Assembly: GCA_946566685.1 (NCBI GenBank) | Contig: CAMNXA010000001.1 | Span: 62,001-126,000, forward strand | DNA from: an uncultured Lachnospiraceae bacterium | GTDB lineage: Bacteria; Bacillota; Clostridia; Lachnospirales; Lachnospiraceae | Length of the DNA stretch: 64,000 nucleotides | Direction of reading: 5' to 3' | Part shown: positions 4,071 through 59,326 of the stretch, one piece after another | Numbering within the stretch: position 1 is the stretch's first letter | How the letters are laid out: each line of letters begins with the position of its first letter | The notes under the pieces: generated by a model | The model's input: only the letters and a program-made list of their open reading frames with translations | Database searches by the model: none | What the model was told of the DNA's origin: nothing | Program-made: the position numbers and the translations under genes

Positions 4071-5209
4071 ACGCCCTCCACTACATCATCACAGACAATC
4101 AGCGCCGGCCCCAGTGACCAGGGATATGTGTCATATCTTTGCGGATACAGGCCAAAACCTTGACACTCTCCGGAGCAGCCATAGACCCTGCCATCCCGGA
4201 CAGATTTCTCCAGAGATTCCCTGCCGCGCAGGAAGGCCTGTCTGTACTTTTCTCCCACAAGAATCTTCAGTTCGATTCCCTCTTTGAGCGCCGCACAGAC
4301 CATACCCGTGACGGAAGTGTCGGCAGGCCCTTCCAATGCCTGTAACTGCCAGGAAAATGCTCCATCAACTCTCTGATAATGAAGCACCGTATCCACAAAC
4401 CCAACAAAAGGCTCCCGCAGCCGCTCCCTGCCATAATCCGACAGGAAACATTTGGACATGCCGCGCAACATCCAGCCCACGGCCCGTCCCCAGCCGATAA
4501 TACCATATTTACAGTCATCCGTCATATCATAACCATGGTAGGGAAGACCGCTTTCTCCGTCCATCCCATAAGCCAGGAAATTGGCGATCTGCTTCACCGC
4601 CAGTTCCATACATTCTTTGCGGTTAAATGTCATGCCATAGCGGTACAGGAACGGGCACACAAGACCCAGCATATCGGCAAACACATACCCATTTCCCTGC
4701 CCAGCCCGGTAAAGCAGGCTTCCCGCATCGTCTTTGGCGTATTCCATGGCGTAATCCGCCATTTTATCTACCGCCTCACGATACTGCCTGGTGCGGGAAT
4801 CTCCTCCCTTCAATTCCATATCCGTCTTGGCCGCCCGGTTTAAATACTGTTCCAGAAAAGTCTCTCCCGCAACCAGATCATCCAGAAAATAAAGGGGCAT
4901 ACCTTTCCCTCTCCATCTGTCAAAATATGCCTCCAGCACCTCTTCTATTTGCAGGATCATCTCATGCATCTGTTCCTCATCAAAGGCTTTCTTCTGCCAT
5001 TCTTTCCCATACTGTCCGGCAAGTTCTGCCCGGCAGTACCATAACCCTCCTGCCAGAAGTCCGGTAGGCCAGAAAATCACATCCACCGGCATGGTCTTCC
5101 TGCCAAGCATGTATTTTCTGACAAAGCGTTTACACCGCGCCTTCATATCCGGAACCCCGTAGTGCATAAGTTCTTTACAGGCATTTTCTATCAATAATTT
5201 CTTATCCAT
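4067..5209 (-). CDS. Glycoside hydrolase family 88/105-like unsaturated uronyl hydrolase
   Basis: The 380-residue protein has no signal peptide, so it is probably cytoplasmic. It has the alpha/alpha-barrel pattern of GH88/GH105 enzymes such as YteR and YesR. Visible landmarks are FADMLGLVCPFLYRYG (Asp179, the position of the general acid in the family), SGLPYHGYD (His225) and GWGRAVGWMLRGM (240-251). Family members hydrate 4,5-unsaturated uronyl residues produced by polysaccharide lyases. No lyase is present in this window, so the role here is unclear. It could trim faulty glycan, act in remodelling or act on another substrate. It sits between Wzx and a Wzy-like gene in the same run. RBS GTGAGG precedes the ATG. 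Confidence 0.75.
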   Translation of the reverse strand: MDKKLLIENACKELMHYGVPDMKARCKRFVRKYMLGRKTMPVDVIFWPTGLLAGGLWYCRAELAGQYGKEWQKKAFDEEQMHEMILQIEEVLEAYFDRWRGKGMPLYFLDDLVAGETFLEQYLNRAAKTDMELKGGDSRTRQYREAVDKMADYAMEYAKDDAGSLLYRAGQGNGYVFADMLGLVCPFLYRYGMTFNRKECMELAVKQIANFLAYGMDGESGLPYHGYDMTDDCKYGIIGWGRAVGWMLRGMSKCFLSDYGRERLREPFVGFVDTVLHYQRVDGAFSWQLQALEGPADTSVTGMVCAALKEGIELKILVGEKYRQAFLRGRESLEKSVRDGRVYGCSGECQGFGLYPQRYDTYPWSLGPALIVCDDVVEGV

Positions 5210-5227
5210 GATAACCTCACTCCCTAC

Positions 5228-6784
5228 CTATCTTTTCAGACCAGGAATCTTACTGACCACTACATTCCACAGATAGGCAAACTCATCTGTTCTGTGAAAT
5301 ATCAACAGGAATACCGTATTATACAATACCGTTATGATCAGCACCATGGCCGCAAACGTGAAAATCGTCACCTGCCCCATGACCGCATGCCGGACAGGAA
5401 TCATCCCCAGCGCCACCGCTAAAATGACTGCCATATACTTACAGGAATCCACAAAATACGGCCATGACTTTCTGTCAAAACATACCCGATAGATGATCAT
5501 GGGCCGAATCAGGTTTGCCAGGATCCCTGAAACCAATGTGCCCACATAAACCCCTGCCACTCCTATTTTCTGCACCAGAATGATGGACACCACCAGATTA
5601 ACGCCCCCCTGTATCAGAGGCAGATATCGATCCTGCTCAAATAGTCCCGATGCGATCTTAAAATTCAGCAGCACGGTACGGCCGCCCTTTAAATAAAAGT
5701 CCACCACCAAAAGAGTCACCGTCAGTTCACTGACCAGCCAGCTCTCATCCAGCCATAAACCGCCAATCAACGGTGACAGCAGATGCCAGAACCCCACCGC
5801 CCCAAAGCCAAAAAGCCAGCAGGCAAAAAAGCGATATACTTTAAAAAGCTGGTACTGTCTCTCTTTCGACTCCGTAGCAACCAGATTGCCAAAACCTGAA
5901 ATTACGGAATCGAAGATGATATTTACAAAGTTTCCCACATACGTGATGATATAAACATAATTGTCCACAACCGCAGAAGTGTCCACATTGACGAAAGAAG
6001 AAATAATAATCTTATCCGTCTGCAGCCTCGCCACATCGCCGACCTTGTGGCAGATGAGCGCCTTGGTCTTGGTGGCCACCACCTGGGTGTCCTCCCTGCT
6101 CAGTTTCACCACATCTTTATCCTTCAGATATGGATACATCCTGCCCAGATATACGCTCACAAAAATCTTTTGCAGAAGTTCCACCAGCGACTGGGACAGC
6201 AGATAAAACAGAAAATTCTTCGTAAGCACCAGCACCACAATCTGCACCAGCGTCACCACGATCTTAGTGACTGTGGTGATGTTGGTCTGGATATAGTTTT
6301 TCTGCTCCGCATTGACAAGACTGTATTTATAAGTCACAAAATAACTGATGACCGTGTTGAACAGAAAGATATAATAATATAACGTCAGTTCCCGTATGGA
6401 GAGACTGCCCGGATTCTTGAGAATATATTTCAGGAAGGGGGAGATTGCGATTCCAAGCACCGTGATCACAGCGGCAATGGAAAGATATGCCCTCTTATAA
6501 AACTGCATGTAAGATTTGATCTTCTCGCGGTCGCCCTGGGCCACCGGCTTATAAAGACTGTAATTGAGCGCCGTGCCGATTCCCATCTCCGTCAGGGACA
6601 GTACACTCAGCACATCGGTATAGATGCCGTTAACGCCCAGAAGCGTCCTGCCCAGCATCCGGATAAAAATGTCCCTTAGCAGGAAATTCATCAGTATGAT
6701 CACAATATTACTGACAAACCCGAATATGATATTTTTCCTGGCCTGTTGTATTCTGCCCATATCACGATTCTCATTCATTTCCAT
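5228..6784 (-). CDS. wzx: Wzx-type polysaccharide flippase
   Basis: A membrane protein of about 518 residues with 12-14 predicted helices. The start IIFGFVSNIVIILMNFLLR followed by LGRTLLGVNGIYTDVLSVLSL is typical of Firmicutes polysaccharide transporters of the MOP superfamily. These flip undecaprenyl-linked repeat units to the outer face of the membrane. The ATG at 6784 is chosen over a longer frame beginning with TTG; ATG 6778 and ATG 6757 are further possibilities. It follows the pyruvyl transferase with a short spacer and precedes the hydrolase and the Wzy-like gene. Together with the WcaJ-type enzyme at 8016 it forms a conventional Wzx/Wzy module. Confidence 0.86.
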   Translation of the reverse strand: MEMNENRDMGRIQQARKNIIFGFVSNIVIILMNFLLRDIFIRMLGRTLLGVNGIYTDVLSVLSLTEMGIGTALNYSLYKPVAQGDREKIKSYMQFYKRAYLSIAAVITVLGIAISPFLKYILKNPGSLSIRELTLYYYIFLFNTVISYFVTYKYSLVNAEQKNYIQTNITTVTKIVVTLVQIVVLVLTKNFLFYLLSQSLVELLQKIFVSVYLGRMYPYLKDKDVVKLSREDTQVVATKTKALICHKVGDVARLQTDKIIISSFVNVDTSAVVDNYVYIITYVGNFVNIIFDSVISGFGNLVATESKERQYQLFKVYRFFACWLFGFGAVGFWHLLSPLIGGLWLDESWLVSELTVTLLVVDFYLKGGRTVLLNFKIASGLFEQDRYLPLIQGGVNLVVSIILVQKIGVAGVYVGTLVSGILANLIRPMIIYRVCFDRKSWPYFVDSCKYMAVILAVALGMIPVRHAVMGQVTIFTFAAMVLIITVLYNTVFLLIFHRTDEFAYLWNVVVSKIPGLKR

Positions 6785-6808
6785 GCCGTTCCCAACGGCA
6801 TAATACAA

Positions 6809-7996
6809 TTAATGTACGGATTCCCAAAGTTTACGGATCTCATCCCCTGCCTCTTTGGCTTTCCGGCAATACGCCGGCATGATCTCCCTAAGCCGCCTGC
6901 GGATTTCTTCCTCCCGCTCCATCATCCAGTCATAGGCACCGATCAGTTCCCCCGGCTCCGATAAAGACTGCACAGGCAGTACATAATGCTCCTCCGTGCC
7001 GAACAGATCCCTGGCTATGCCCCTGGCTTTGACGGAGTATCCTACCACCAGCGTGGGCACCATGGAAGAGTAGGCCGCAATGGTGGCGTGGGTTCTGGCT
7101 CCGATAAATGCCCGGCACTTTGAGATGACATATTTCAGCCGCTGACAGGACATATCCTCGAAAAGGAGCACCCTCTCATTGTCCCGATAGGCCTCATAAA
7201 GCTGGGCAAGGGTCTGCCTGTCATCCGTATGGTGCCAGATTACATGGGGAATCAGTGCAATTGAATAACTGCTGTTACTTAAAATATGATCCATCAGCTT
7301 CCGATAATTAGCGATGGTGATGCCCTCTACCATCTCATTTTCCACCACCATGGGACTGACATTGATGCCGATGGTCTCCTGTTCCCGAAACCCTGCCGGC
7401 AGCGCAAAAGCCTCCGGTTGCAGAGAAAAGGCCGGATCCGGGTACTGTTTCACATTTTCAGTAACACCGGCATCCTGTAAGGCCTGTGCCGTAATGGATT
7501 CCCGGGGCGTGATCAGCGCATAACGCTTCAAGTCCGCCACTACCTCCGGATTCTGCAAAAGTTCCGGCTCCAGGGAACACCCCCACAAAACTGTCCTGGC
7601 CCCTGCCCTGCAAAACGTGCCATTAGCCAGCATTGCCTCTTTTCTGGGCACTTCATAACAATACATGTCGCCCCCTATGGAGAGGTACAGAGGAGCCAGT
7701 TCTTTTCCCAGCACCTTATGGAATCGGTAACGCATAAAAGATTCCGGATCATGAAATATCTTACGCCAGCCATAATACCACACATGGGCCAGAAAATGCT
7801 CCGCAATCTTGCGTTCCTGCAAAATATCACACAGGGACGCCGGCAAATAGAGCCTGTCCTCCTGCTCACTGTTGGTCAAAAGCAGTTTGGGAATCTCTTC
7901 TATCATGTGGCAGGTGCTGTTGACAATCGCCTCACAGCCATGATTACCGCTGCCGCCATGCAAATACATGACAATCTTGTCATTTTTATATTCCAT
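6809..7996 (-). CDS. Polysaccharide pyruvyl transferase family protein
   Basis: The 395-residue protein matches the polysaccharide pyruvyl transferase family (CsaB/WcaK/EpsO-like). It opens with MYLHGGSGNHGCEAIV, the glycine-rich N-terminal motif of the family. The C-terminal half has CRAFIGARTHATIAAYSS, the usual GxRxH segment. Family members move pyruvate from phosphoenolpyruvate onto a hexose or hexosamine as a ketal, adding negative charge. It has no membrane segment and probably acts in the cytoplasm on lipid-linked intermediates. It lies between the initiating transferase and Wzx, a common position for a repeat-unit decorating enzyme. The acceptor sugar cannot be read from sequence. Confidence 0.85.
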   Translation of the reverse strand: MEYKNDKIVMYLHGGSGNHGCEAIVNSTCHMIEEIPKLLLTNSEQEDRLYLPASLCDILQERKIAEHFLAHVWYYGWRKIFHDPESFMRYRFHKVLGKELAPLYLSIGGDMYCYEVPRKEAMLANGTFCRAGARTVLWGCSLEPELLQNPEVVADLKRYALITPRESITAQALQDAGVTENVKQYPDPAFSLQPEAFALPAGFREQETIGINVSPMVVENEMVEGITIANYRKLMDHILSNSSYSIALIPHVIWHHTDDRQTLAQLYEAYRDNERVLLFEDMSCQRLKYVISKCRAFIGARTHATIAAYSSMVPTLVVGYSVKARGIARDLFGTEEHYVLPVQSLSEPGELIGAYDWMMEREEEIRRRLREIMPAYCRKAKEAGDEIRKLWESVH

Positions 7997-12433: not shown

Positions 12434-13918
12434 CTAGAACTGGAAATAGATAAAGTTGGCTACGTCATACCCCGCACCCCACATACCAAACAGAAGGATA
12501 CCAAGTATTGCCACGATCACACAAAGGCACTGCGCCCAATAGTCCTGTCTGGCAATCACCTCCCGCAGTTTCATTCCCTTATATTTACAGATATCCACTA
12601 CAAAAAGCAATAAAATCCCCCACACCATCAATCTGAAATTCTTTTCATTTAAGCCGCACTCATACAAAGAACCGTCAAACCACACCCAATGATTCCTGGC
12701 CGTCAGCATTCTCTTAATAATGCGAAGCGCTTCAAACACGGTATTCGCCCGGAAAAATACCCAGGCAAGATCCACCAATAGGAAAGTTGTCACCACCCGT
12801 AAACATCTGTGACTCAGACTGTCCTCCTTTATATCCAATATTCCAACCATTTTTTTCTTTATAGGCGTTAATATGTCGCCAATAATCTGATATGCCCCGT
12901 TCAACAGACCCCAGATCACATAAGTCCAGTTAGCGCCATGCCAGAGACCGCTCACTCCGAAGGTAATTATCAGATTCACATATTTCCTGATTTTTCCTTT
13001 GCGGTTACCGCCCAGCGGAATATACAGATAATCCCGGAACCAGGTGGACAAGGATATATGCCATCTGCGCCAAAATTCCGCCACTGAAGCCGCAAGATAC
13101 GGTGAATTGAAATTCTCCATCAAAGAAATACCCAGAATCTTTGCCGCTCCCATAGCGATAACAGAATATCCAGCAAAATCACAATAAATCTGTACTGCGA
13201 ACAATAAAGTCGCCACGATCAGATAGACACCCGTATAGGTCTCAATATCTCCATAAGCTGTATCTACAAAGACCGCAATACGATCCGCCAGCACCACCTT
13301 CAAAAAATATCCCCAGAGCATCAGCAAAAAACCGTCCCGGAACCGGTCAAATGTCGGGGCCGCCGGTTTGTCCAGCTGGCGCAGAAGATTTTTGGATCTT
13401 TCAATCGGCCCTGCCACCAACTGCGGAAAGAACGATACAAAGAGGGCATACCGGAAGAAGTTTTTCTCAGCGTAAATCTCCCCCCTGTAGACATCCACCG
13501 TATACCCCAGCGCCTGGAAAGTATAGAAGGAAATCCCCACCGGCAAAAGCAAATCAAATGCCGGCGCGTTGAGTTCGATATGCAAATGGCTCAAAATCTG
13601 ATTCAGACTTGCTATCCCAAAATCCAGATACTTAAAGACAAACAGAATGGAAAGATTGAGGATAAAGCTGGCCGCGACACACAATTTCCTGTAGCGCTTT
13701 CCCTTATCCTCCTGCGGACATTTTTCCAGCATAATACCTGACACATATGTCACAATTGTGGAAAACAAAAGCAACAGCACATACTTTGCATTCCAACACA
13801 TATAAAAATAATAGCTGGCCGCCAAGAGCCAGTAGGTTCTGATCTTACGCGGAATCAGATAATAGACTGCTATCACAATTGGAAAAAAGATTAAAAAGTG
13901 CAACGAATTAAAAAGCAT
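12434..13918 (-). CDS. MBOAT-family O-acyltransferase (AlgI/DltB-like)
   Basis: The membrane protein has about 494 residues and roughly 11 helices. Family signatures are SFYTFQALGYTVDVYRG, FWRRWHISLSTWFRDYL (His287) and SGLWHGANW (His327, the canonical MBOAT catalytic His). The PLGGNRKG segment is typical of the AlgI branch that acetylates secreted polysaccharides. The protein transfers an acyl group, often acetyl, across the membrane to the SGNH partners encoded downstream. The ATG at 13918 is chosen because GTGAGGG precedes it; the longer frame (from 13969) has no ribosome site and its extra residues look non-membrane. This is one of two MBOAT genes in the window. Confidence 0.9.
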   Translation of the reverse strand: MLFNSLHFLIFFPIVIAVYYLIPRKIRTYWLLAASYYFYMCWNAKYVLLLLFSTIVTYVSGIMLEKCPQEDKGKRYRKLCVAASFILNLSILFVFKYLDFGIASLNQILSHLHIELNAPAFDLLLPVGISFYTFQALGYTVDVYRGEIYAEKNFFRYALFVSFFPQLVAGPIERSKNLLRQLDKPAAPTFDRFRDGFLLMLWGYFLKVVLADRIAVFVDTAYGDIETYTGVYLIVATLLFAVQIYCDFAGYSVIAMGAAKILGISLMENFNSPYLAASVAEFWRRWHISLSTWFRDYLYIPLGGNRKGKIRKYVNLIITFGVSGLWHGANWTYVIWGLLNGAYQIIGDILTPIKKKMVGILDIKEDSLSHRCLRVVTTFLLVDLAWVFFRANTVFEALRIIKRMLTARNHWVWFDGSLYECGLNEKNFRLMVWGILLLFVVDICKYKGMKLREVIARQDYWAQCLCVIVAILGILLFGMWGAGYDVANFIYFQF

Positions 13919-13957
13919 AATGCCCTCACTTTCCCTTACCGTACAACAAACAATATA

Positions 13958-13966
13958 ACTATAGCA
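13958..13966 (-). promoter_or_regulatory. Candidate extended -10 promoter before the MBOAT/SGNH genes
   Basis: The 65-base gap between the GT11 gene and the MBOAT start contains TGCTATAGT on the minus strand. This is an extended -10 element about 40 bases before the start codon. The -35 region is poor. It could give the O-acylation genes their own promoter. No terminator hairpin is seen, so read-through from upstream is also expected. Confidence 0.3.
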
Positions 13967-13983
13967 CACTTATACTGGATTTT

Positions 13984-40724: not shown

Positions 40725-42296
40725 TCAAAAACTCTGGTACATAAATGCTGCCGTATCATAACCGCCGCCGTAAATACCCGTAATCAGCACCACCAGCAAA
40801 ATCCCATAATAGCAGCACCACCTCGCCGGCATCGGCCAGCCTGCCAGACAGGCCCGCACATCTTTGCCCCGTTCTTCCCACACAGATACCGCAAGCCACA
40901 CAAGCAGCGCCGCAAACAGGAGCAGGAAGCCATACTTGCTGATACCATAGGAAGTAATCGTCTGAGAAAACAGCGCCCGTACATCCAACCTGGTCAGAAA
41001 GGCCCGGTAGATCATGCCCGCCTGTGCCAGGCTTTCACTGCGGATCAGCACATCTGCCACGAACACAATCAGCCAGGTACGCGCCATGCAAAACAGCCCC
41101 CAGAGTTTCCCCTCCCGGATATGGAGTTTTTCCTTCCAGACAGCGTATCTTGCTTCCAGTACCAGGGAAACGCTCATGATCAGGCCGTAATAAACGCCCC
41201 AGAGTATATAACTAACCGTCCTGCCGTGCCACATGCCGGTAAAGAGCCAGACCAGCATGGTCCCCAGGATTGGCACCACATGTCTGCCCATGACAGCCCA
41301 TCTCTTCTTGGCCGCCTTCGTAATCTTGCGTCCTGTCCCCGACATGACAAAGGAAAACATCACATAATCCTTAAACCAGGTGCCCAGGGTAATATGCCAT
41401 CTGCGCCAGAATTCCGCCACAGACTTGGAGAAATACGGTCTCTTAAAGTTCTCCGGCAGGAAGATATCGAAGGTCTCGCTGACACCCAGCGCCATATCCA
41501 TATAGCCGGAAAAATCCGCATACAGCTGTAACATATAAAGCACCACCGCCACCGCGAAGATGCTTCCCGGCACTTCGGCAGCCTGGCTCGCAAACACATT
41601 GTCCACAAACAGCCCAATCCGGTCCGCGATCACCAGCTTCTTAAAAGCGCCCCAGACGAACCGCTGAATCCCCCGCAGCATTCTGTCATAGTCAAAGATA
41701 TGTTCCCTCTCAAACTCCTCTTTTAATTTGGCAAAGCGATTGAAAGGCCCCTGGGTGACCGCCGGAAAATAGGACAGAAACAACAGCACTTTTAAAGGAT
41801 TCTGCTCTGCTTCGCACTGCTCCCTGCCCACATCCACCACATAACCGATGGCCGTCAGCGTATAGAAGGAAATGCCAAGCGGCATGACCACTTTTTCAAA
41901 AAATCCTGTGGGAACACCCCAGTCCTTCAAGAAAGGCAGGGCCACGACCGTGTATTTATAGAAGACTAACAGTCCCAGATGCAACGCAAAATAAAGGATT
42001 TGAATCCGTTTTCTCTGTTTCTCAAATCCATGTTTTACTGTTTTCTTACTTTCCTTATCCGTGCAATCTGCAAGAGCCTTACGCTGTGAAGCAAGACTAT
42101 TTTGCAGATAAATGCCGCAGGCATAGGTGGTAACACCGGTAATGAGCAGGCTAAATGGAACCCCTTGCAGCCCGATCACATAAAACACAAGTCCTGCTGC
42201 CAGAAGGATCTGCCATTTCCGCCTCTGCGGCACCAGATAATAGAGGGCGAAGGTAATCACCCACAACAACACAAAAGTGTAGGATAATAACTGCAT
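40725..42296 (-). CDS. DltB-like MBOAT acyltransferase
   Basis: The 523-residue protein has about 11 helices. MBOAT signatures are SFYTLTAIGYVVDVGREQ, FWRRWHITLGTWFKDYV (His301) and FTGMWHGRTVSYILWG (His357, canonical). The FSFVMSGTG stretch after KDYV is like DltB rather than AlgI. In Dlt systems DltB takes the aminoacyl group from the carrier protein DltC and moves it across the membrane. The ATG directly abuts the TAA of the carrier-protein gene (TAAATG), so the two are co-translated. With the ligase, carrier and SGNH genes it forms a complete dlt-like set. Confidence 0.88.
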   Translation of the reverse strand: MQLLSYTFVLLWVITFALYYLVPQRRKWQILLAAGLVFYVIGLQGVPFSLLITGVTTYACGIYLQNSLASQRKALADCTDKESKKTVKHGFEKQRKRIQILYFALHLGLLVFYKYTVVALPFLKDWGVPTGFFEKVVMPLGISFYTLTAIGYVVDVGREQCEAEQNPLKVLLFLSYFPAVTQGPFNRFAKLKEEFEREHIFDYDRMLRGIQRFVWGAFKKLVIADRIGLFVDNVFASQAAEVPGSIFAVAVVLYMLQLYADFSGYMDMALGVSETFDIFLPENFKRPYFSKSVAEFWRRWHITLGTWFKDYVMFSFVMSGTGRKITKAAKKRWAVMGRHVVPILGTMLVWLFTGMWHGRTVSYILWGVYYGLIMSVSLVLEARYAVWKEKLHIREGKLWGLFCMARTWLIVFVADVLIRSESLAQAGMIYRAFLTRLDVRALFSQTITSYGISKYGFLLLFAALLVWLAVSVWEERGKDVRACLAGWPMPARWCCYYGILLVVLITGIYGGGYDTAAFMYQSF

Positions 42297-42527
42297 TTAT
42301 TCCTCCAGCAGACGCTCGACAAGTTCAATGATCGCCTCTTTATTCTTAAAGTTCTCCGCCACCACATACTTGGCATCAATCTCAATATCAAACTCCTCTT
42401 CCAGCTCACTCACGATATTGATGACCGTGAAGGAATCAATGATCCCATCCTCCATCATGCTGTCGCCATCATAGGTAAGCGCTTCCTCACAGTACTCTTC
42501 CAGAATTTCCAACACTTTTTCTTCCAT
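42297..42527 (-). CDS. DltC-like acyl/peptidyl carrier protein
   Basis: A 76-residue acidic helical protein with the phosphopantetheine site DGIIDSFTVIN (Ser32, preceded by Asp31). The length and the DS motif match DltC and related carrier proteins. The start at 42527 follows AAAGGAC; the longer frame adds 14 unlikely residues. A phosphopantetheinyl transferase from elsewhere in the genome would be needed. The gene lies between the formyltransferase and the DltB-like MBOAT, so the carrier probably holds the aminoacyl group made by the ligase at 43418. Confidence 0.9.
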   Translation of the reverse strand: MEEKVLEILEEYCEEALTYDGDSMMEDGIIDSFTVINIVSELEEEFDIEIDAKYVVAENFKNKEAIIELVERLLEE

Positions 42528-42552
42528 AGTAGTATGTCCTTTCTTTATGTAT

Positions 42553-43416
42553 TCACTCTCCGAGAACACGATATTTCATTTTAAGCAGATTCCCTTCCCC
42601 CAAGGGCAGATAAATCACATGCTCCGCATCCTTCTTTTTCTCCAGTACAATCTTGCGGTATCTTACAACTTCCACCCGCACGCCGTCCACCACAGTCTGC
42701 ATGGGCGGGAAGATATCATTCTTCCCATAATCCACACTGCGGAGCAGGCGGTATATGGCTTCCGGTTCTTCACTTAGTTCAAAAAATCCGTCCCCCGGCA
42801 CCTCCGCGGAACGGTACATCCGCCGGCCCAGGATACTTCCCTGAGAGGTGGTCTGCGCGCGTTCTTCCAAAACAGCCGCAAAACACTCTTCAAATCCCTC
42901 GCAGGCCAGATCCATCAGCCGCTCGGTCAGTTCATAGGCCTTGTCCTCCGGGGAGATAGCACACCTTTTCTGAAGGATGATATTTCCCTCATCAATTCCC
43001 GCTGTCACATAGTGCCAGGTAATGCCGGTCTCCCGCTCTCCCTGATAGATGACCCAGCTGGGGGCATTCCTGCCCGGATAATCCGGCAAAAGGGCGTTGT
43101 GGAAATTGATGATGGTGATGTTCTCCTTCTCCACACAGGCCGCCGGAAAGAGGAAATTGTTGCTGGCACTGACAATCAGCGTCTTCTCCGTGATACCGCA
43201 CAGATATGCAGAAAGTTCATGCTTATCCGGCATAGCCGCATAGGGAATGCCCATTTCCTCACAAATCTTCCTCGTAATACTGAAAGCGTGAAACTCATGT
43301 TCTATAAATTCCAGTCGATAACCGTATGCCGGTCTCTGTTTTTCTATGTATTTCAGTATATTTCCAGTCGTCTTACCATATCCGATCACTATCACACGGT
43401 CAAAACCTTCTCCCAT
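42553..43416 (-). CDS. Formyltransferase (Fmt/ArnA-type) embedded in the dlt-like cassette
   Basis: The 287-residue protein has the N10-formyltetrahydrofolate formyltransferase core. The catalytic triad is intact: Asn104 and His106 in INFHNALLPDYPGR, and Asp142 in AGIDEGNI. Family members formylate Met-tRNA, nucleotide-linked amino sugars, or an aminoacyl-carrier-protein (as the formylation domain of linear gramicidin synthetase LgrA does). The C-terminal part is a short Fmt-C-like domain. Its place between the adenylating ligase and the carrier-protein genes suggests that it formylates the carrier-bound amino acid; an amino sugar is the alternative. RBS AAGGAG lies upstream. Confidence 0.85.
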   Translation of the reverse strand: MGEGFDRVIVIGYGKTTGNILKYIEKQRPAYGYRLEFIEHEFHAFSITRKICEEMGIPYAAMPDKHELSAYLCGITEKTLIVSASNNFLFPAACVEKENITIINFHNALLPDYPGRNAPSWVIYQGERETGITWHYVTAGIDEGNIILQKRCAISPEDKAYELTERLMDLACEGFEECFAAVLEERAQTTSQGSILGRRMYRSAEVPGDGFFELSEEPEAIYRLLRSVDYGKNDIFPPMQTVVDGVRVEVVRYRKIVLEKKKDAEHVIYLPLGEGNLLKMKYRVLGE

Positions 43417-43417
43417 A

Positions 43418-44941
43418 TCAAAGAAACTCCTTCAATTTCACCCTGTCAATCTTCCCGTTGGCGTTGATGGGCATTTTCTCCAGTGTGATCAGCTTGTTGG
43501 GCAGCATGTACTCCGGCACCAGATGGGAAATCTTCTCATTAATATAAGCTTTTTCCAGTTCTCCCTCAATAAACAGCACAATCTTTTGCCTCTTCTCATC
43601 ATAGAGACAACAGCACAAGGATATCTCTTCCAGGGAAGAAACTGCCGTCTCAATCTCTCCCAGTTCAATCCTGTGGCCCATATGTTTGATCTGGAAATCC
43701 TTGCGGGAAAGATAGATCAGTTCGCCGCGTTCATTATATTTTACAATATCGCCTGTCCTGTAGATCAGTTCGGGCACATAAGGATTTAAGGGATTTTGCA
43801 CAAAGGCTTCCCTGGTCTTTTCCGGATTGTTGTAATACCCCATGGAGAGAGAGGTTCCCCGGACACAGAGTTCGCCGGATTCCTCCCCAGTTACCTTTTC
43901 ATTCTTATCATTTAACACCAGAATGTCCGTGTTGGGCATCGCATAGCCGATGGGAATCGGTTCTTCATCTGTAAATTCACGGTCTACCACATAATAGGTG
44001 CAGGCATCCGTAATCTCCGTGGGCCCGTAAAGATTGGCATACTGCACATCCGGCAGGAATTTCCGCCACACATTCAGCTGTTTGTTGGGCATCACCTCAC
44101 CGCAGAACAGTACCCGTTCCAAGGTGTCTGATAAATCCACATTCTTAAAGGCTTTAAGCTTCGCCACCACGATCAGTGCCGAAGGCACCCAAAAAATGGT
44201 ATTGATCTTCTTTTCTTTTAAATATTCCAGCAAAAGCACCGGCTGGGCAAACAGATTCTTGGGCACGATATAAGTCGTGGCGCCGGTCTTGATGGTGCTG
44301 TAGATATCCAGTATGGAATTGTCAAAGTAAAAAGGCGCCTGGTTGCCGAAGCTGTCTTTCTCCGTAATCTGAAAAGTCTCCGTCACCCAGTCCGTATAAT
44401 CTATCACGGAGCGGTGGTTGATGGTCACACCCTTGGGCACGCCCGTGGAACCGGAAGTAAACAGCACGTACAGAAGGTCTGTGTCGATTCCTCTCCTTCT
44501 TGCCGCCTCAATCTTTGCCTCCCTTAACCCATCTTCGTTCTGCCCGCAGGCCGCCAGCGCCTCTTCCAAAATCAGGAACTCGCCCTGATAGGCATACTGG
44601 GCAAAAACTTCCCGCAGCGCCGCCGTGGTAATGACAATGGCTGGATCCAGCACTTCAAGAATCTTATTCACCCGGCTGCCCGGCATGTCCACATCAATGG
44701 GGGAATAAAAGTTACAGCTGTAAGCCGCCCCCATAAAGGAGACCAGCACATCGACACCCTTTTCCAGAAAGACGACCACTGGCCTTTTAAAGAATCCCCG
44801 CTCTATCAGTTCATAAGCCACCGCCCTGGCCTGCCCACGCAGCTGCCCGAAGGTGACCTGCTTGTTTTCATCTGCAAAAGCTGTCTTATCAGGCAGCCTG
44901 GCCGCTGTCTCATCGAGCCAGTAAGTAACGTTTGCTTTCAT
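43418..44941 (-). CDS. DltA-like amino acid adenylating ligase
   Basis: The 507-residue adenylate-forming enzyme has FTSGSTGVPKG (161-171), YGPTE (305-309), YRTGD (394-398) and the catalytic Lys in NANGKIDR near the end. Resemblance to DltA is strong: GNQAPFYFDNSILD parallels DltA's SNQAPFSFDLSVMD, and VLFCGEVMP retains the Cys (280) that I associate with D-alanine preference. Asp207 should bind the alpha-amino group, so the substrate is an alpha-amino acid, with D-Ala or another small residue most likely. It loads the carrier encoded at 42297. The ATG at 44941 follows GGAGAGAAG; a GTG at 44956 overlapping the SGNH stop is less likely. Confidence 0.88.
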   Translation of the reverse strand: MKANVTYWLDETAARLPDKTAFADENKQVTFGQLRGQARAVAYELIERGFFKRPVVVFLEKGVDVLVSFMGAAYSCNFYSPIDVDMPGSRVNKILEVLDPAIVITTAALREVFAQYAYQGEFLILEEALAACGQNEDGLREAKIEAARRRGIDTDLLYVLFTSGSTGVPKGVTINHRSVIDYTDWVTETFQITEKDSFGNQAPFYFDNSILDIYSTIKTGATTYIVPKNLFAQPVLLLEYLKEKKINTIFWVPSALIVVAKLKAFKNVDLSDTLERVLFCGEVMPNKQLNVWRKFLPDVQYANLYGPTEITDACTYYVVDREFTDEEPIPIGYAMPNTDILVLNDKNEKVTGEESGELCVRGTSLSMGYYNNPEKTREAFVQNPLNPYVPELIYRTGDIVKYNERGELIYLSRKDFQIKHMGHRIELGEIETAVSSLEEISLCCCLYDEKRQKIVLFIEGELEKAYINEKISHLVPEYMLPNKLITLEKMPINANGKIDRVKLKEFL

Positions 44942-44952
44942 ATCTTCTCTCC

Positions 44953-46032
44953 TCACCGTGCCGGAATCACCGGATAGAAGGTATCCATCATTTTTTCCGT
45001 TTTCACGTGATAAATATCGTACAAATCCGTCATCTCAAGGCCGCATCCCGCCGGATCATAAGAACCGTAAAGGGCAATCTGCCGCTCACGCGCCAGTTCC
45101 TGTACTCTCTTTTCCACTTCCAGCGTAATCTGAAAAGCCTCCTCTGATTCTATGTAATTATACATCATGGGCGAATAGGGTGGCAAGTATAAAATGACCT
45201 CCACGCCCTGCTCCTGCAGCCAGATAATCAGCCGCTCAAACCGCTCCCAGTGGCCGTAATCAATCTCCTGATAATCCGTCATCCGATAGACCACATGCTC
45301 TTCCATGGACTGTCTGGTCAGTTCCTCTACCATCGCTGCATCACCTTCCCGCAGTTCCCGCTGGTAGGCAATGCTCCCGTCATAATGTTTCAGGTACCGC
45401 TCCGTCTCCCAGTCATCCGTATAGGACACCTGGAACCGCTTTCTCTCCGGAAGCAGGGTAACGTTATAGCGGAAATAATCCAGAGAAAGCCATTTGCCCA
45501 TATCTTTCCCGGTGTTCTTTTGCGGATGCAGGTTGCCCTCATCAAATTTCTCATTCAGGATCACGCTCATGTAATTGACATACGGTCGAAGGTCTTCCCA
45601 CCTGTCATTGTCATGACTGGTGTTGAATAAAAAGGCATCTACCCCGATCACCATGGTCTTCGGCAGTTTATCTTCCGCCGCCAGCACCCCCGACACTGCC
45701 AGCAGGTCATAGACTGTGGACTCTGACAGCCCCGCATTATAAAAAGAATCCGTACCGAACATGGTATGGTCAAAATTCATCACCCGGCTGGAGCCCGCCA
45801 CGATCACATCTCTCGGCCCCTCCTGCTGTTTCACACAGGCCAGAAACAGATTGCGGTCATTGAAATCCGATTCTTCCAGCCCTTCCACATTCCGGCCGTA
45901 CACTGCCATCTGCTCCCCAATCTGGTCATACGTGATACGCAGCATCGCATAAGAATCCACATACCAGTTTACCACCGCAACCAATAGGATGACCGGCAGA
46001 AGAAAAAGGATCGCTTTACACCATTTTTTCAT
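44953..46032 (-). CDS. DltD-like SGNH protein of the dlt-like cassette
   Basis: The 359-residue protein has an N-terminal signal-anchor helix (about 7-23), then an SGNH-like domain with IVAGSSRVM (Ser82 as probable nucleophile) and, at the end, DLYDIYHVK (Asp339, His342). The architecture matches DltD, which completes transfer of D-Ala to teichoic acid outside the membrane. The sequence otherwise differs from DltD and from the other three SGNH proteins here. Its ATG overlaps the upstream TGA (TGATG). It opens the cassette SGNH, ligase, formyltransferase, carrier, MBOAT. Confidence 0.72.
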   Translation of the reverse strand: MKKWCKAILFLLPVILLVAVVNWYVDSYAMLRITYDQIGEQMAVYGRNVEGLEESDFNDRNLFLACVKQQEGPRDVIVAGSSRVMNFDHTMFGTDSFYNAGLSESTVYDLLAVSGVLAAEDKLPKTMVIGVDAFLFNTSHDNDRWEDLRPYVNYMSVILNEKFDEGNLHPQKNTGKDMGKWLSLDYFRYNVTLLPERKRFQVSYTDDWETERYLKHYDGSIAYQRELREGDAAMVEELTRQSMEEHVVYRMTDYQEIDYGHWERFERLIIWLQEQGVEVILYLPPYSPMMYNYIESEEAFQITLEVEKRVQELARERQIALYGSYDPAGCGLEMTDLYDIYHVKTEKMMDTFYPVIPAR

Positions 46033-51301: not shown

Positions 51302-52222
51302 TTACACCAGCAGATCTCCCGCCCGCAGGCTTCGGACACACTCATACCGGTCTATCAAAAGCGATCCGTCCACTGTCCGCACCACCAATTTTCCATCAAA
51401 CACATCGATCACTTCACCGGGGGCATACGCCGAGAAGTCTATCATCTCGTCAAAGGGATGGGCTTCCCACACCCGTACCTCATCCTCCCCGCACATCGCA
51501 AAGGCTCCCGGAAAAGGCGCCGCCACCCCGCGGATCAGATTGTAAATCTCACGGGTCCTGGCATGAAAATCTATCTTACCGTCCGCCGCCGTGCGCTTCT
51601 CGTACCAGGAATCAAAGTCCTTAGAATCCGTGCGGATCACAATCGCGTCTTCCTCATAGGCTTTTAACAGCCTGCGGATCAGGTTCTTGGAACAGATCAT
51701 ATTCTTATACTGTGCCGTGCGAATGTCATCATGGGGCGTGATGGAAAACATCTCTGTTGCAAACACATTAGGGCTGTCCGCTTTCTCATCATAGCGGAAC
51801 AGGTTCAGATTAAACCGGGAATCCCCCAGAATGATAGACCAATTTAAGGGGGAACGGCCTCTGCCAAAGGGGAGATAACCACTGTTGCCATGAAATCCAT
51901 AGACGCCGTACTTAAAACAGTCCAGAACCGGTTTCGGCATCAGTCTCTGCCACCCCATGGAGATGCCAATGTCAAATTCGTTCTCCCGCATAAAATTCTG
52001 TGTCTTTTCGTCTGTCAGAAAATAACTGTCCGCCTCGTGCACCGGAATCCCATATTTTTCCGTGAGGATGGAGAGTCCCTTATATCCCGATACCTGATTT
52101 TTCTTTGTAACTTCCGGGCTGATGGTGATCACCAGATCCACCGGACAGATCTGCTCCTGGATAAATGTGACAATATTTTCGGACGTATCCTTCACGCCAA
52201 ACACGACTACCTTGTATTTCAT
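51302..52222 (-). CDS. Formyltransferase-like protein (sugar N-formyltransferase candidate)
   Basis: About 306 residues with an N-terminal formyltransferase domain and a C-terminal Fmt-C-like barrel (about 205-306; ending near RSLRAGDLLV). The catalytic block reads YGFHGNSGYLPFGRGRSPLNW: His111 is kept and Asp149 (EKADSP) aligns with the catalytic Asp, but the residue matching Asn102 of ArnA is Gly109. Such enzymes formylate 4-amino sugars on nucleotides, using N10-formyltetrahydrofolate. The neighbouring dehydratase and aminotransferase would supply a 4-amino sugar. ATG 52222 follows GAGGTG. Confidence 0.78.
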   Translation of the reverse strand: MKYKVVVFGVKDTSENIVTFIQEQICPVDLVITISPEVTKKNQVSGYKGLSILTEKYGIPVHEADSYFLTDEKTQNFMRENEFDIGISMGWQRLMPKPVLDCFKYGVYGFHGNSGYLPFGRGRSPLNWSIILGDSRFNLNLFRYDEKADSPNVFATEMFSITPHDDIRTAQYKNMICSKNLIRRLLKAYEEDAIVIRTDSKDFDSWYEKRTAADGKIDFHARTREIYNLIRGVAAPFPGAFAMCGEDEVRVWEAHPFDEMIDFSAYAPGEVIDVFDGKLVVRTVDGSLLIDRYECVRSLRAGDLLV

Positions 52223-52230
52223 AAAGCACC

Positions 52231-53208
52231 TCACTTCAAGTATTCCTTATACCAATCAATCGCCAGCGCAATCCCTCTCTCAAAATCATATTCCGGATCA
52301 TATCCCAAAAGTTCCCTGGCTTTTGTGATATCCGCATTGGAATCCCGCACGTCACCCTTTCTCGGAGGCCCGAAATTGGGCTCCACATCTTTGCCCAGGG
52401 CTTTGCAGAGATGATAGTAAATATCTATCAGGAAAAGTCTGCCGCCGGCACCGATATTAAAAGCCTGTCCCGCCGCGTCACTGGAAGCCTTGCAGGCCCG
52501 CAGGTTAGCTTCGATCACATTATCAATATAAGTGAAATCCCTGGACTGCTTCCCGTCCCCATTGATGGTGGGCACTTCCCCGTGGAGCAGCTGTTTGATA
52601 AACTTCGGGATAACCGCCGCATACATACCGTTAGGATCCTGTCTGCGTCCAAATACATTGAAATAACGGAGTCCATAAGTATCCAGTCCGTACAGTTCTT
52701 TATAGAGACGACCGTACTCCTCATCCACCCTCTTCGTCAACGCGTAAGGGGAGATCACTTTTCCCTCCTGCCCCTCTTTTTTCGGTAATGTCAGAGAGTC
52801 CCCGTAAACAGAAGAACTGGAAGCATAGACAAATTTCTTCACGCCGTTTATCCTGGACGCCTCCATCATATTTAACGTGCCGCGGATATTAATCTCCTCA
52901 TACAGAAGCGGCATCTCGATGCTTCTGGGCACACTGCCCCAGGCTGCCTGCTGTAACACATAATCCACGCCCTCCGTGGCTTCTTTACAGGTGTCCAGAC
53001 TGCGGATATCGCCTTTGATAAAGGTAAATCTCTCGTTGGATACTAACGGCTCAATATTCTCATATTTGCCAGTGGAAAGATCATCCAGGCACCGTACCGT
53101 GTATCCCATGTCAATCAATGCCTCACACAGATTGGAGCCGATAAAACCGGCGCCGCCGCCCACCAGAAAAACCGTATCTTTGTCAAACTGAATGTCTCGA
53201 TAACTCAT
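52231..53208 (-). CDS. UDP-GlcNAc(A) 4-epimerase, WbpP/TviC-like
   Basis: The 325-residue extended SDR enzyme has FLVGGGAGFIGSN (17-24, NAD-binding), VYASSSSVYGD (catalytic Ser), SPYALTKR (Tyr155, Lys159) and GLRYFNVFGRRQDP. These match WbpP/TviC, which epimerise UDP-GlcNAc or UDP-GlcNAcA at C4. With the TviB/WbpO-like dehydrogenase at 54587 it should give UDP-GalNAcA. The ATG at 53208 follows ATGAGGT; the longer frame reaches back into the upstream membrane-protein gene. RNIRG and NIGAG segments support substrate binding. Confidence 0.88.
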   Translation of the reverse strand: MSYRDIQFDKDTVFLVGGGAGFIGSNLCEALIDMGYTVRCLDDLSTGKYENIEPLVSNERFTFIKGDIRSLDTCKEATEGVDYVLQQAAWGSVPRSIEMPLLYEEINIRGTLNMMEASRINGVKKFVYASSSSVYGDSLTLPKKEGQEGKVISPYALTKRVDEEYGRLYKELYGLDTYGLRYFNVFGRRQDPNGMYAAVIPKFIKQLLHGEVPTINGDGKQSRDFTYIDNVIEANLRACKASSDAAGQAFNIGAGGRLFLIDIYYHLCKALGKDVEPNFGPPRKGDVRDSNADITKARELLGYDPEYDFERGIALAIDWYKEYLK

Positions 53209-57068: not shown

Positions 57069-58700
57069 TCATATCCACCGGTATGCATCCGTTATCTTTT
57101 GGATTTTCATGTCATAAGCATTGTCCTGTACCTCTTTATGATAATACAATCCGTCCACATTTTCAAAATAGATACTCCGCATGCCAAGCTGCATGGGTGC
57201 CTGGAAATCTTTACCCGGATTGTCCCCGATATAGACCATCTCCTCATAGGGGACCCTCCATCTGCATTGCAGGATCCGAAAAGCGATGTCGCAGGGCTTG
57301 CGGAACTGTACCCCGCCCAGTTCATCCGTAATGATGATATCCTCCGTCAGCTGGTCAAGTCCCAGCGCCCTGATCTTATTCTTCTGCCCTTCCACCCGGC
57401 CGTCCGTGATGATCCCAATATGGATTCTCTGGGCACGCAGCCTTTGCAGCATGTGGGACACGCCCTCATATAAAGCAATCTCAGGCATATGCTCCCGGTA
57501 TACGCGCAGGCACTGCTCTTTCAGTTCCGGCCGCCCCATCTCCCGCAGCAGTTCATCAACAGCGCTCTTGCCCTCCAGGAAATACTGCCACAGCTTCTTA
57601 GCCGCCTGCTTATCCGCAAGCCATTCGCCCACGGCCGCAAATCCACTTTGCACATACTGTTTCTCCGGATAGAGGGTATCGTCCAGATCAAATATGACAC
57701 CCGTTATCTTTCCGGCCTGCTCCACCGTCCGCCTGCTCTCGCAGGCAATACAGATACTCTGGTCAAAGCGGCTGTAAACCGCGCCGTCCCGTATCCCCTG
57801 GTTCTGATATCCGACTCTCTCTCCCGACAACAGGCGGAGAATCCACTCTGCGGAATCAGCGCCCGCCTTCATGCTCAAAGGAGCGCCGCCGCCGTACCTG
57901 GGATTGATTTCTATATAATAATCATCTCCTGTATCTTTTTGCCTGATCAACTGTACCGTGATCGGCCCACAGGGCTGAAACTTTTCAATCAGGTTCCGGC
58001 ACTCTGCTATGATGGTATCGTCCAGTTCAATTCTCGTCTTTAACACTTCACCACTGCGGACAGCGATTCTCTCCCGCGGCACAATGCCAATGGGATTCCC
58101 TTCAAAATCACAGAAGATGTCCACCGTATATTCCCTGCCCTCAATAAAAGGCTGAATGATATAGTCCTGCACCTGTTCCGCATAAGATGCAAGCTGCCCC
58201 GCATGTTCCACCTTATAGGCATTGATACTGCTGCTGCCGTCCTTTGGCTTAATAAAGCAGGGATACGGCCCCGTATACTGCCGGTAATCATTGACCGGCG
58301 CCGGCGCTTTCAGACCGCAGGAGAGGAAAAAATCCGATGTATAGTTTTTGTCCCTGCACAGTCCCACCTTATCCGGACAGCTGATCATCACTCTGGTACC
58401 GGCCTCTTCAAACCGCTCCCGATTCTTCGATAACACCATCAGATCCGTATCGATTGTCGGAATGACCAGATCAATATGATCCTTCCGGCAGATCTCCAGC
58501 AGCTGCGAAATATAGTCCGGATCCTTCATGGGGCATATCTTCCTGCTGTAATCACAGAAGGTCAGTGCCGGAGCAGTCCCCGCCATATCCGCACCATATA
58601 GTTTCAGGGGGATGCCCAGTCGAAGCGCCGCCTGCCTGAATGCCTGCAACAGTTCCACGCGCCTGCCTGCACCGGTAAATAAAATACGCTGTTCTCTCAT
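57069..58700 (-). CDS. ATP-grasp ligase fused to a HAD-family phosphatase
   Basis: About 543 residues in two domains. The N-terminal ATP-grasp domain (about 1-325) begins RILFTGAGRRVELLQAF and has CFIKPKDGSSSINAY (ATP-binding loop) and YYIEINPRYGGG (metal site), as in carbamoyl-phosphate-synthase-like ligases. The C-terminal HAD domain (about 332-543) has VIFDLDDTLYP (motif I), a Lys near 468 (motif III) and YIGDNPGKDF (motif IV). Ligases of this type join a carboxylate to an amine. The HAD domain could remove a phosphate from substrate or product. ATG 58700 follows AAAGGA; a TTG at 58727 and ATG at 58721 also lie in frame. A sugar amine or amino acid substrate is inference. Confidence 0.82.
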   Translation of the reverse strand: MREQRILFTGAGRRVELLQAFRQAALRLGIPLKLYGADMAGTAPALTFCDYSRKICPMKDPDYISQLLEICRKDHIDLVIPTIDTDLMVLSKNRERFEEAGTRVMISCPDKVGLCRDKNYTSDFFLSCGLKAPAPVNDYRQYTGPYPCFIKPKDGSSSINAYKVEHAGQLASYAEQVQDYIIQPFIEGREYTVDIFCDFEGNPIGIVPRERIAVRSGEVLKTRIELDDTIIAECRNLIEKFQPCGPITVQLIRQKDTGDDYYIEINPRYGGGAPLSMKAGADSAEWILRLLSGERVGYQNQGIRDGAVYSRFDQSICIACESRRTVEQAGKITGVIFDLDDTLYPEKQYVQSGFAAVGEWLADKQAAKKLWQYFLEGKSAVDELLREMGRPELKEQCLRVYREHMPEIALYEGVSHMLQRLRAQRIHIGIITDGRVEGQKNKIRALGLDQLTEDIIITDELGGVQFRKPCDIAFRILQCRWRVPYEEMVYIGDNPGKDFQAPMQLGMRSIYFENVDGLYYHKEVQDNAYDMKIQKITDAYRWI

Positions 58701-58723
58701 ATGGCCGTATTCCTTTCCCATCG

Positions 58724-59326
58724 TCAATTGCCCATAAACTCTTCCATCGTGGCATTTGTCTCGCTGCTTATCCCCTCACGCTTTACTACAGCCCGGATTG
58801 TCCCGATAAAAATACGCACATCCATGGCAAACGTAAGATGCTTTACATACTCCACATCATAGGCAAATTTTTCCTCCCAGGTAATGGCATTCCTGCCGTT
58901 GATCTGCGCAAGTCCTGTCAGACCCGGCCTCACATTGTGCCTCTGTCTCTGGAACTCATTATACCGGGGAAGATACCTGACTAACAGCGGCCTGGGGCCG
59001 ATCACACTCATATCGCCCTTCAGGATATTAAAAAGTTCCGGCAGTTCATCCAGACTCGTAGAGCGAAGCATCTTTCCGAAACCGGTAAGCCGCCTGTCGT
59101 CCGGCAGAAGATTTCCCGCTTCATCCCGTTCGTCCGTCATGGTTCTGAATTTATAAAGGGTAAAGATTTTCTCATATCTCCCCGGCCTCTCCTGCCGGAA
59201 CAAGACCGGACTTCCCAGCTTGACCCGCACCAGCACTGCCACAATCAAAAGCACAGGACTAAGCACAAGTATCCCACATAAGGAGAGCAAAAAATCCAAC
59301 CAACGTTTTATACACCGCTTATACAT
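58724..59326 (-). CDS. PglC-like phosphoglycosyl transferase (small initiating enzyme)
   Basis: The 200-residue monotopic enzyme has one N-terminal re-entrant helix (LLSLCGILVLSPVLLI), then FTLYKFRTMTDERDE, STSLDELPELFNIL with the Asp93-Glu94 pair, GDMSVIGPRPLL and VRPGLTGLAQINGRNA. It is the size and type of PglC, which moves a phospho-bacillosamine-type sugar to undecaprenyl phosphate. With the dehydratase and aminotransferase upstream it would start a glycan with a 4-amino-4,6-dideoxy-GlcNAc derivative. It is the second initiating enzyme in the window; the other is WcaJ-type. Confidence 0.9.
   Translation of the reverse strand: MYKRCIKRWLDFLLSLCGILVLSPVLLIVAVLVRVKLGSPVLFRQERPGRYEKIFTLYKFRTMTDERDEAGNLLPDDRRLTGFGKMLRSTSLDELPELFNILKGDMSVIGPRPLLVRYLPRYNEFQRQRHNVRPGLTGLAQINGRNAITWEEKFAYDVEYVKHLTFAMDVRIFIGTIRAVVKREGISSETNATMEEFMGN

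Follow-up and report, generated by a model that had tools for sequence, protein, structure and literature searches.

The 64,000-nucleotide stretch of DNA from an uncultured Lachnospiraceae bacterium that we analyzed as a whole (the window) carries a five-gene cassette that resembles the Dlt system but holds, in its middle, a gene for a formyltransferase (FT). All five genes lie on the minus strand and run from 46032 to 40725 in the order SGNH protein, ligase, FT, carrier, and MBOAT, together with one motif that matters for their interpretation:

44953..46032, minus strand: candidate SGNH-type exported acyltransferase, 359 amino acids (aa), with invariant GSSR (80-83) and DxxH (339-342).
43418..44956, minus strand: DltA-like amino acid adenylating ligase, 512 aa, with pocket code DNLFLCLDAK, Asp212, Cys285, and Lys502.
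42553..43416, minus strand: formyltransferase FT, 287 aa, with a Formyl_trans_N domain and the triad N104/H106/D142.
42297..42527, minus strand: DltC-like acyl carrier protein (ACP), 76 aa, from an internal ATG start in an open reading frame (ORF) that extends up to GTG 42569.
40725..42296, minus strand: DltB-like MBOAT, 523 aa, with a Pfam MBOAT match and the WHG histidine.
40728..40745, minus strand: FMYQSF at the MBOAT C terminus (Tyr520), a motif match to the FXYXXF acyl shuttle.

The SGNH and ligase genes overlap by 4 bases, and 1 base separates ligase and FT. The carrier start (ATG 42527) was picked by the carrier length of relatives, mostly 75-76 aa, and leaves a 25-base gap after FT and none before the MBOAT gene. 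Genes, order, strand, and junctions are as an initial annotation had described them, and so are the intact Asn-His-Asp triad of FT and the ligase residues given there as Asp207 and Cys280 (Asp212 and Cys285 when numbered from the GTG start). This cassette is real in Lachnospiraceae and not a chance arrangement, because its order is kept in relatives and the link between FT and ligase recurs in two genome samples.

Pfam E values are 1.2e-64 for the ligase (AMP-binding), 2.7e-21 for FT (Formyl_trans_N, 76.6 bits against a cut-off of 26.1), and 8.2e-15 for the MBOAT. The ligase also passes the TIGR01733 amino acid adenylation cut-off (333.2 versus 317.4 bits), and its Asp212 is what we take to be the equivalent of Asp235 in GrsA numbering. 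Its match to TIGR03098 is weak and under cut-off, and it falls below the DltA equivalog TIGR01734 (331.8 bits, cut-off 559.85). No DltA exceeded that cut-off in any of the 116 order genomes, with positive controls from B. subtilis and L. lactis, while 180 of 397 family genomes have a DltA-like ligase at E<=1e-60. Within its own genome (94.8% complete assembly) the ligase is the sole strong match, the next being 28% identical at E 2.8e-17. Pocket codes, here and below, were read by motif position; 5 of the 10 pocket positions of the window ligase differ from the one DltA compared, that of Enterococcus (DLMILCTVAK), so that D-Ala as cargo is not implied. In a separate group of ligases (L087, L091, L093, L096, L099, L110, and L114), Ser replaces the amine-binding Asp to give the code SMxYLALDIK; these stretches also encode a carrier and an MBOAT, and such ligases might perhaps load a non-amino acid.

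The carrier and the MBOAT are likewise DltC-like and DltB-like in their matches and below the Dlt cut-offs (25.5 versus 52.35 bits for TIGR01688 and 39.6 versus 68 for NF003464; 162.8 versus 375 bits for the DltB equivalog TIGR04091). The probable phosphopantetheine Ser of the carrier lies within a DSF motif. The MBOAT has the WHG His and the C-terminal FMYQSF looked for in an MBOAT-SGNH route; the relevant passage of PMC12148441 describes the FXYXXF shuttle motif for DltX and PatA. Since the MBOAT carries this motif at its own C terminus, a DltX is not needed, and a whole-window scan for a loose C-terminal FXYXXF found no separate DltX microprotein. Six ORFs end in the loose motif, namely the MBOAT of the cassette, a second MBOAT gene (12434-13969, minus strand), and four ORFs of 5-58 codons that lie well away from the cassette. 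The cassette MBOAT thus looks like a carrier-fed enzyme with a fused shuttle, which makes transfer plausible. The second MBOAT ends in FIYFQF and so has the shuttle motif as well; besides the cassette, no ligase or carrier match was found elsewhere in the window, the surroundings of this second gene included.

The SGNH protein had been called DltD-like. That it is of the SGNH type agrees with its GSSR, Asn, and DxxH residues, which are invariant across 27 orthologues, but the likeness to DltD was not borne out, as the protein has no Pfam match even at E 0.05 and no NCBIfam match at 0.001. A Foldseek search with its predicted structure, a poor model, returned weak GDSL/SGNH esterase matches (best E 0.048).

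We propose, at a probability of roughly 0.7, that the cassette is a variant of the Dlt/MBOAT-SGNH systems in which a carrier-bound amino acid would be N-formylated, exported, and esterified to a surface glycan. The ligase would adenylate an amino acid and load it onto the phosphopantetheine arm of the carrier, whereupon FT would formylate the amine of this amino acid on the carrier, with 10-formyltetrahydrofolate (10-formyl-THF) as the donor. The MBOAT would then move the N-formyl-aminoacyl group from the carrier onto its own Tyr520, and the SGNH protein would transfer it from there to a hydroxyl of a surface polysaccharide, presumably the one made by the surrounding cluster, to give a neutral N-formyl-aminoacyl ester. 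For loading and for both transfer steps we infer the course from the mechanism of the families and from conserved residues, and the amino acid and the glycan acceptor are presumptive in this model. That the amine is formylated on the carrier is likely, given the gene association, the position of FT between ligase and carrier, and the intact triad. The initial annotation had left open an ester or an amide; the ester stands, and the amide is less likely for an MBOAT/SGNH route, judging by these families.

The initial annotation had named gene order in other genomes, beforehand, as a point on which its proposal could fail. We scanned species genomes with an alignment of two FT sequences, which gave 38 loci, and mapped the window genes onto these. 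In 28 of the 30 close loci (L007-L036, FT 57-89% identical to that of the window), which share descent and many of which are metagenome-assembled genomes (MAGs), all five genes stand in order; L013 and L014 are partly cut or split. In 29 of the 30, FT is flanked by ligase and carrier, the contig of L012 starting at FT; in both L012 and L031 the contig starts within the cassette, and in L025 1.6 kb separates FT from the carrier. Farther away, L037 keeps ligase, FT, carrier, and MBOAT, with an upstream 718-aa ORF that gives no match to the SGNH model, and the FT of L044, from Cytophagales, stands on a 5.8-kb contig that lacks the cassette.

FT itself is rare, with 2 matches among 392 order genomes at E 1e-20, the window genome counted. 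An FT profile matched 13 of 397 family genomes (E<=1e-25), among them G000, G689, and G126, which are rows of that profile. In 8 of the 13 a same-strand ligase lies upstream at no more than 400 bp, in seven of them at 8-38 bp with nothing between and in G511 at 356 bp, a distance that includes the carrier; in G126 the ligase is 7 kb from FT. The chance value for this proximity is 2.8e-17, calculated under an assumption of independence and random placement and with the genomes that gave rows to the profile counted in. Ten FT genomes outside the profile comprise six with a ligase within 400 bp, one with a SerRS-like ligase, one with an MBOAT only, and two with amino-sugar clusters. Among 398 phylum genomes the sole FT match besides the window was G982, in which one ligase, divided between two reading frames, is followed by another ligase, FT, and a carrier. 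The SerRS-like case (G397, locus L135) has, side by side at 3800-7548, an acyl ligase, a carrier, a SerRS-like ligase of the amino acid:ACP type, and FT; its SerRS-like protein has solved amino acid:[ACP] ligases among its relatives (3mey, E 2.6e-21) and scores 157 bits, below cut-off, with NCBIfam NF005479. SerRS-like enzymes load carriers according to a note in proof (PMC2922099), and L135 may represent an alternative loading route next to the same FT family.

All 47 FT rows labelled carrier-linked keep Asn-His-Asp, and the carrier-linked FTs form one clade (support 99/98) against L136, L137, L044, Fmt, PurN, and FT2, in a tree with few, long-branched outside rows and with labels partly set by profile search (L044 is called a sugar formyltransferase by its label alone, and L134 is classed as carrier-linked with an MBOAT as its sole neighbor). 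FT2 (51302-52234, minus strand) was rejected as the formyltransferase of the cassette, its catalytic Asn being replaced by Gly (GHD). Where seen in relatives, it is 75-96% identical in the matched parts, and it may have a different chemistry.

Comparison of the gene that occupies the slot between ligase and carrier with the pocket of the ligase bears on when FT would act. Of 36 ligase rows from FT loci, 31 have the code DNLFLCLDAK, one of them with an ambiguous first residue (L011), and the 36 count one genome twice (L026 = L079; L038 and L045 are likewise one genome). In L080 and L081 a GNAT protein replaces FT while this code is unchanged, and each locus has an MBOAT and an ORF that is SGNH-like by eye, that of L080 without an NCBIfam match; a third GNAT locus, L088, has the code DAKDMLLGDK. 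DNLFLCLDAK is also found in L083 and L084, which have neither FT nor GNAT, and Val near-forms of it occur in L082, L086, and L095. Conversely, FT accompanies DVKIMSLCNK in L092, L097, and L138-L140, DVKVLSLCNK in L141, DIQYMGVVNK in L040, L041, and L043, DIFFWALLDK in L042 and G126 (L045), and DNLFLALVDK in L039. The slot enzyme thus changes without the pocket, and the pocket changes while FT stays, which fits an action of FT after loading. The DVK type of code, with Lys third, is shared with 12 loci whose slot holds a LysA-like pyridoxal phosphate (PLP) decarboxylase (L100, L104-L109, L111-L113, L115, and L116; the family match, run for L100, was to TIGR03099 and below cut-off). Across 40 other ligase loci, hand-picked as the 20 best matches and 20 from down the list and so not a survey, the slot held FT in 3 (including L079), GNAT in 3, a LysA-like protein in 12, an AAC3 protein in 1, and something else in 21. 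AAC(3)-like genes (L082, L083, and L086) were dropped as amine-capping slot enzymes, as no MBOAT was matched there; such an enzyme may be a transferase to an amino sugar. We would tentatively go further, to a somewhat less than even wager that Lachnospiraceae and their relatives have a modular, Dlt-derived surface acylation system in which an exchangeable slot (FT, GNAT, or PLP decarboxylase) determines the chemistry of the amino acid displayed on the glycan and its charge, the FT version giving N-formyl amino acid esters.

Several observations weigh against N-formylation of a carrier-bound amino acid. By sequence and fold FT is nearest to sugar formyltransferases (WbkC and ArnA, 22-24% identity) and not to the LgrA domain. 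The predicted model (predicted local distance difference test [pLDDT] score of 94) has ArnA, WbkC, and Fmt as its nearest solved folds, and the fold does not, in Foldseek, distinguish sugar, Met-tRNA, and formyl-THF dehydrogenase enzymes. Genes for a PglF/WbpM-like dehydratase, as we presume it to be, and a LegC-like aminotransferase lie upstream of the cassette at a distance of about 13-16 kb, so that an amino-sugar substrate may exist. In L038-L043, which also have genes that resemble the KAS III-like protein of L120 by first residues, ligase and carrier are present in other orders and FT is not between them; in L039 and L043, DegT- and PglF-like genes lie close to FT as well. G533 and G622, the two weakest of the 13 profile matches, lie in amino-sugar clusters with DegT genes (G533 has a ligase in the genome table without a place among the matches listed, and none within its 14-kb stretch), and in G536 FT adjoins an MBOAT on the other strand with no ligase on that stretch. 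Finally, the SGNH protein is weakly identified, from invariant residues and weak structural matches. The formylating transfer put forward in the initial annotation is supported by comparison (gene order, the link between FT and carrier, and the shuttle motif), while the formylation step we infer, with an enzyme nearest to sugar formyltransferases.

It is accordingly conceivable, if improbable, that the substrate of FT is a nucleotide-activated 4-amino sugar, and that the amino acid reaches the same polymer unmodified by way of ligase, carrier, MBOAT, and SGNH protein. What speaks against it is that FT sits between ligase and carrier in nearly all close loci and that the FTs of amino-sugar clusters (L136 and L137) fall outside the carrier-linked clade. 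Moreover, a phmmer search for sugar genes at E 1e-6, started from the DegT, PglF-like, dehydrogenase, epimerase, sugar transferase, glycosyltransferase, and asparagine synthase-like proteins of the window, gave no match on L037, L038, L040, L041, L092, L097, L134, L135, or L138-L141, the stretches searched in L037, L092, L097, L134, L135, and L138-L141 being 10-17 kb; of these loci, L037, L092, L097, and L138-L141 have FT with the cassette. Matches elsewhere were a sugar transferase in L042, DegT in L136, and DegT with a PglF-like gene in L137. DegT-family proteins occur somewhere in all 10 genomes tested, which also weighs against N-formylation on the carrier; the absence of sugar genes therefore counts as local evidence only, and a genome-wide lack of sugar aminotransferases was dropped as an argument for exclusion. 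By these comparisons FT appears to track carrier-loading modules more than sugar aminotransferases.

Enzymes of the PvdF or coelichelin type formylate before loading, and FT might in the same way act on the amino acid while it is still free, or on an amine of a side chain, with the ligase loading the formylated product. The polar Asn213 and Asp317 of the pocket could hold a side-chain amine or hydroxyl, but the ten pocket residues are the same when GNAT replaces FT (L080 and L081), FT is seen with several codes, and Asp212 for the free alpha-amine is kept, so we regard this order of events as unlikely. Least probable by far is that FT follows the mechanism of the 10-formyl-THF dehydrogenase hydrolase, which moves formyl to phosphopantetheine, and that the glycan is O-formylated, for although such hydrolase domains stand at Foldseek ranks 15, 17, and 19 of FT, a formyl-S-carrier would make the ligase superfluous, and a ligase with the amine-binding Asp is present in 29 of the 30 close loci (all those with readable flanks, L011 having one ambiguous residue).

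Several known systems come close to the proposed N-formylation on the carrier. With DltABCDX D-alanylation the cassette shares ligase, carrier, MBOAT, SGNH protein, and the logic of the FXYXXF shuttle; it differs in its extra FT, in a shuttle fused to the MBOAT with no DltX found in the window, in scores below the NCBIfam Dlt cut-offs, and in its setting in a polysaccharide cluster. The MBOAT-SGNH pair PatA/PatB also has FXYXXF on the C terminus of its MBOAT, as the same passage of PMC12148441 states, but PatA uses acetyl-CoA where the cassette encodes a carrier protein. The initial annotation had cited LgrA as a precedent for formylation of a carrier-bound amino acid, and rightly so: the F-A-PCP initiation module of linear gramicidin synthesis N-formylates the first valine, according to the part of PMC5053139 that deals with it. 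There too a formyltransferase, an adenylating domain, and a carrier act together, while in the cassette they are separate proteins, FT is nearer to sugar formyltransferases, and the product would presumably pass to an MBOAT and not into a peptide. The exosortase-A-associated TIGR03098/TIGR03099 sets and BtrK/BtrI likewise place a tailoring enzyme beside a ligase and a carrier; these decarboxylate, whereas the cassette would N-acylate. BtrK, of butirosin biosynthesis, decarboxylates a glutamyl-carrier (excerpt of PMC7857480), of which the LysA-like slot enzymes are reminiscent.

The initial annotation was aware of no earlier account of such a system, and for the route we found none either: in the open-licence PMC literature, judged from titles and the starts of abstracts, we recognized no paper on a Dlt-type formylating route, and none on the combination of formyltransferase, DltA, and MBOAT. 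The product is another matter, since an N-formyl-L-alanyl group is reported in the Vibrio anguillarum O2 O-antigen (PMC10059132), so that the chemistry is not wholly new; the passage concerned gives no route, and the terms "formyltransferase" and "acyl carrier" do not appear in the paper.

The surrounding polysaccharide cluster is long and includes glycosyltransferases, a TviB/TviC-like pair, the LegC-like aminotransferase, the PglF-like dehydratase, and a bacterial sugar transferase, as well as an ATP-grasp protein fused to a HAD hydrolase domain (57069-58727, minus strand). Near FT cassettes elsewhere, PP-loop proteins occur in L139 (8324-9361; 165 bits with TIGR03573, N-acetyl sugar amidotransferase, cut-off 203) and in L140 (5837-6850) and L134 (10508-11521), the latter two assigned by first-residue likeness.

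D-alanylation is the textbook means of adding positive charge to Gram-positive surfaces, and if our interpretation is true, its formyl-capped version would be the opposite, a neutral and probably more stable ester. Host formyl-peptide receptors detect N-formyl amino groups, and a link between these receptors and the cassette is speculation. Two of the close loci, L009 and L036, are recorded as coming from strains and not from MAGs, so chemical analysis of cultured strains may be possible. If true, our findings would mean that the logic of the Dlt system has been diversified in assembly-line fashion in commensals whose envelopes are little known.

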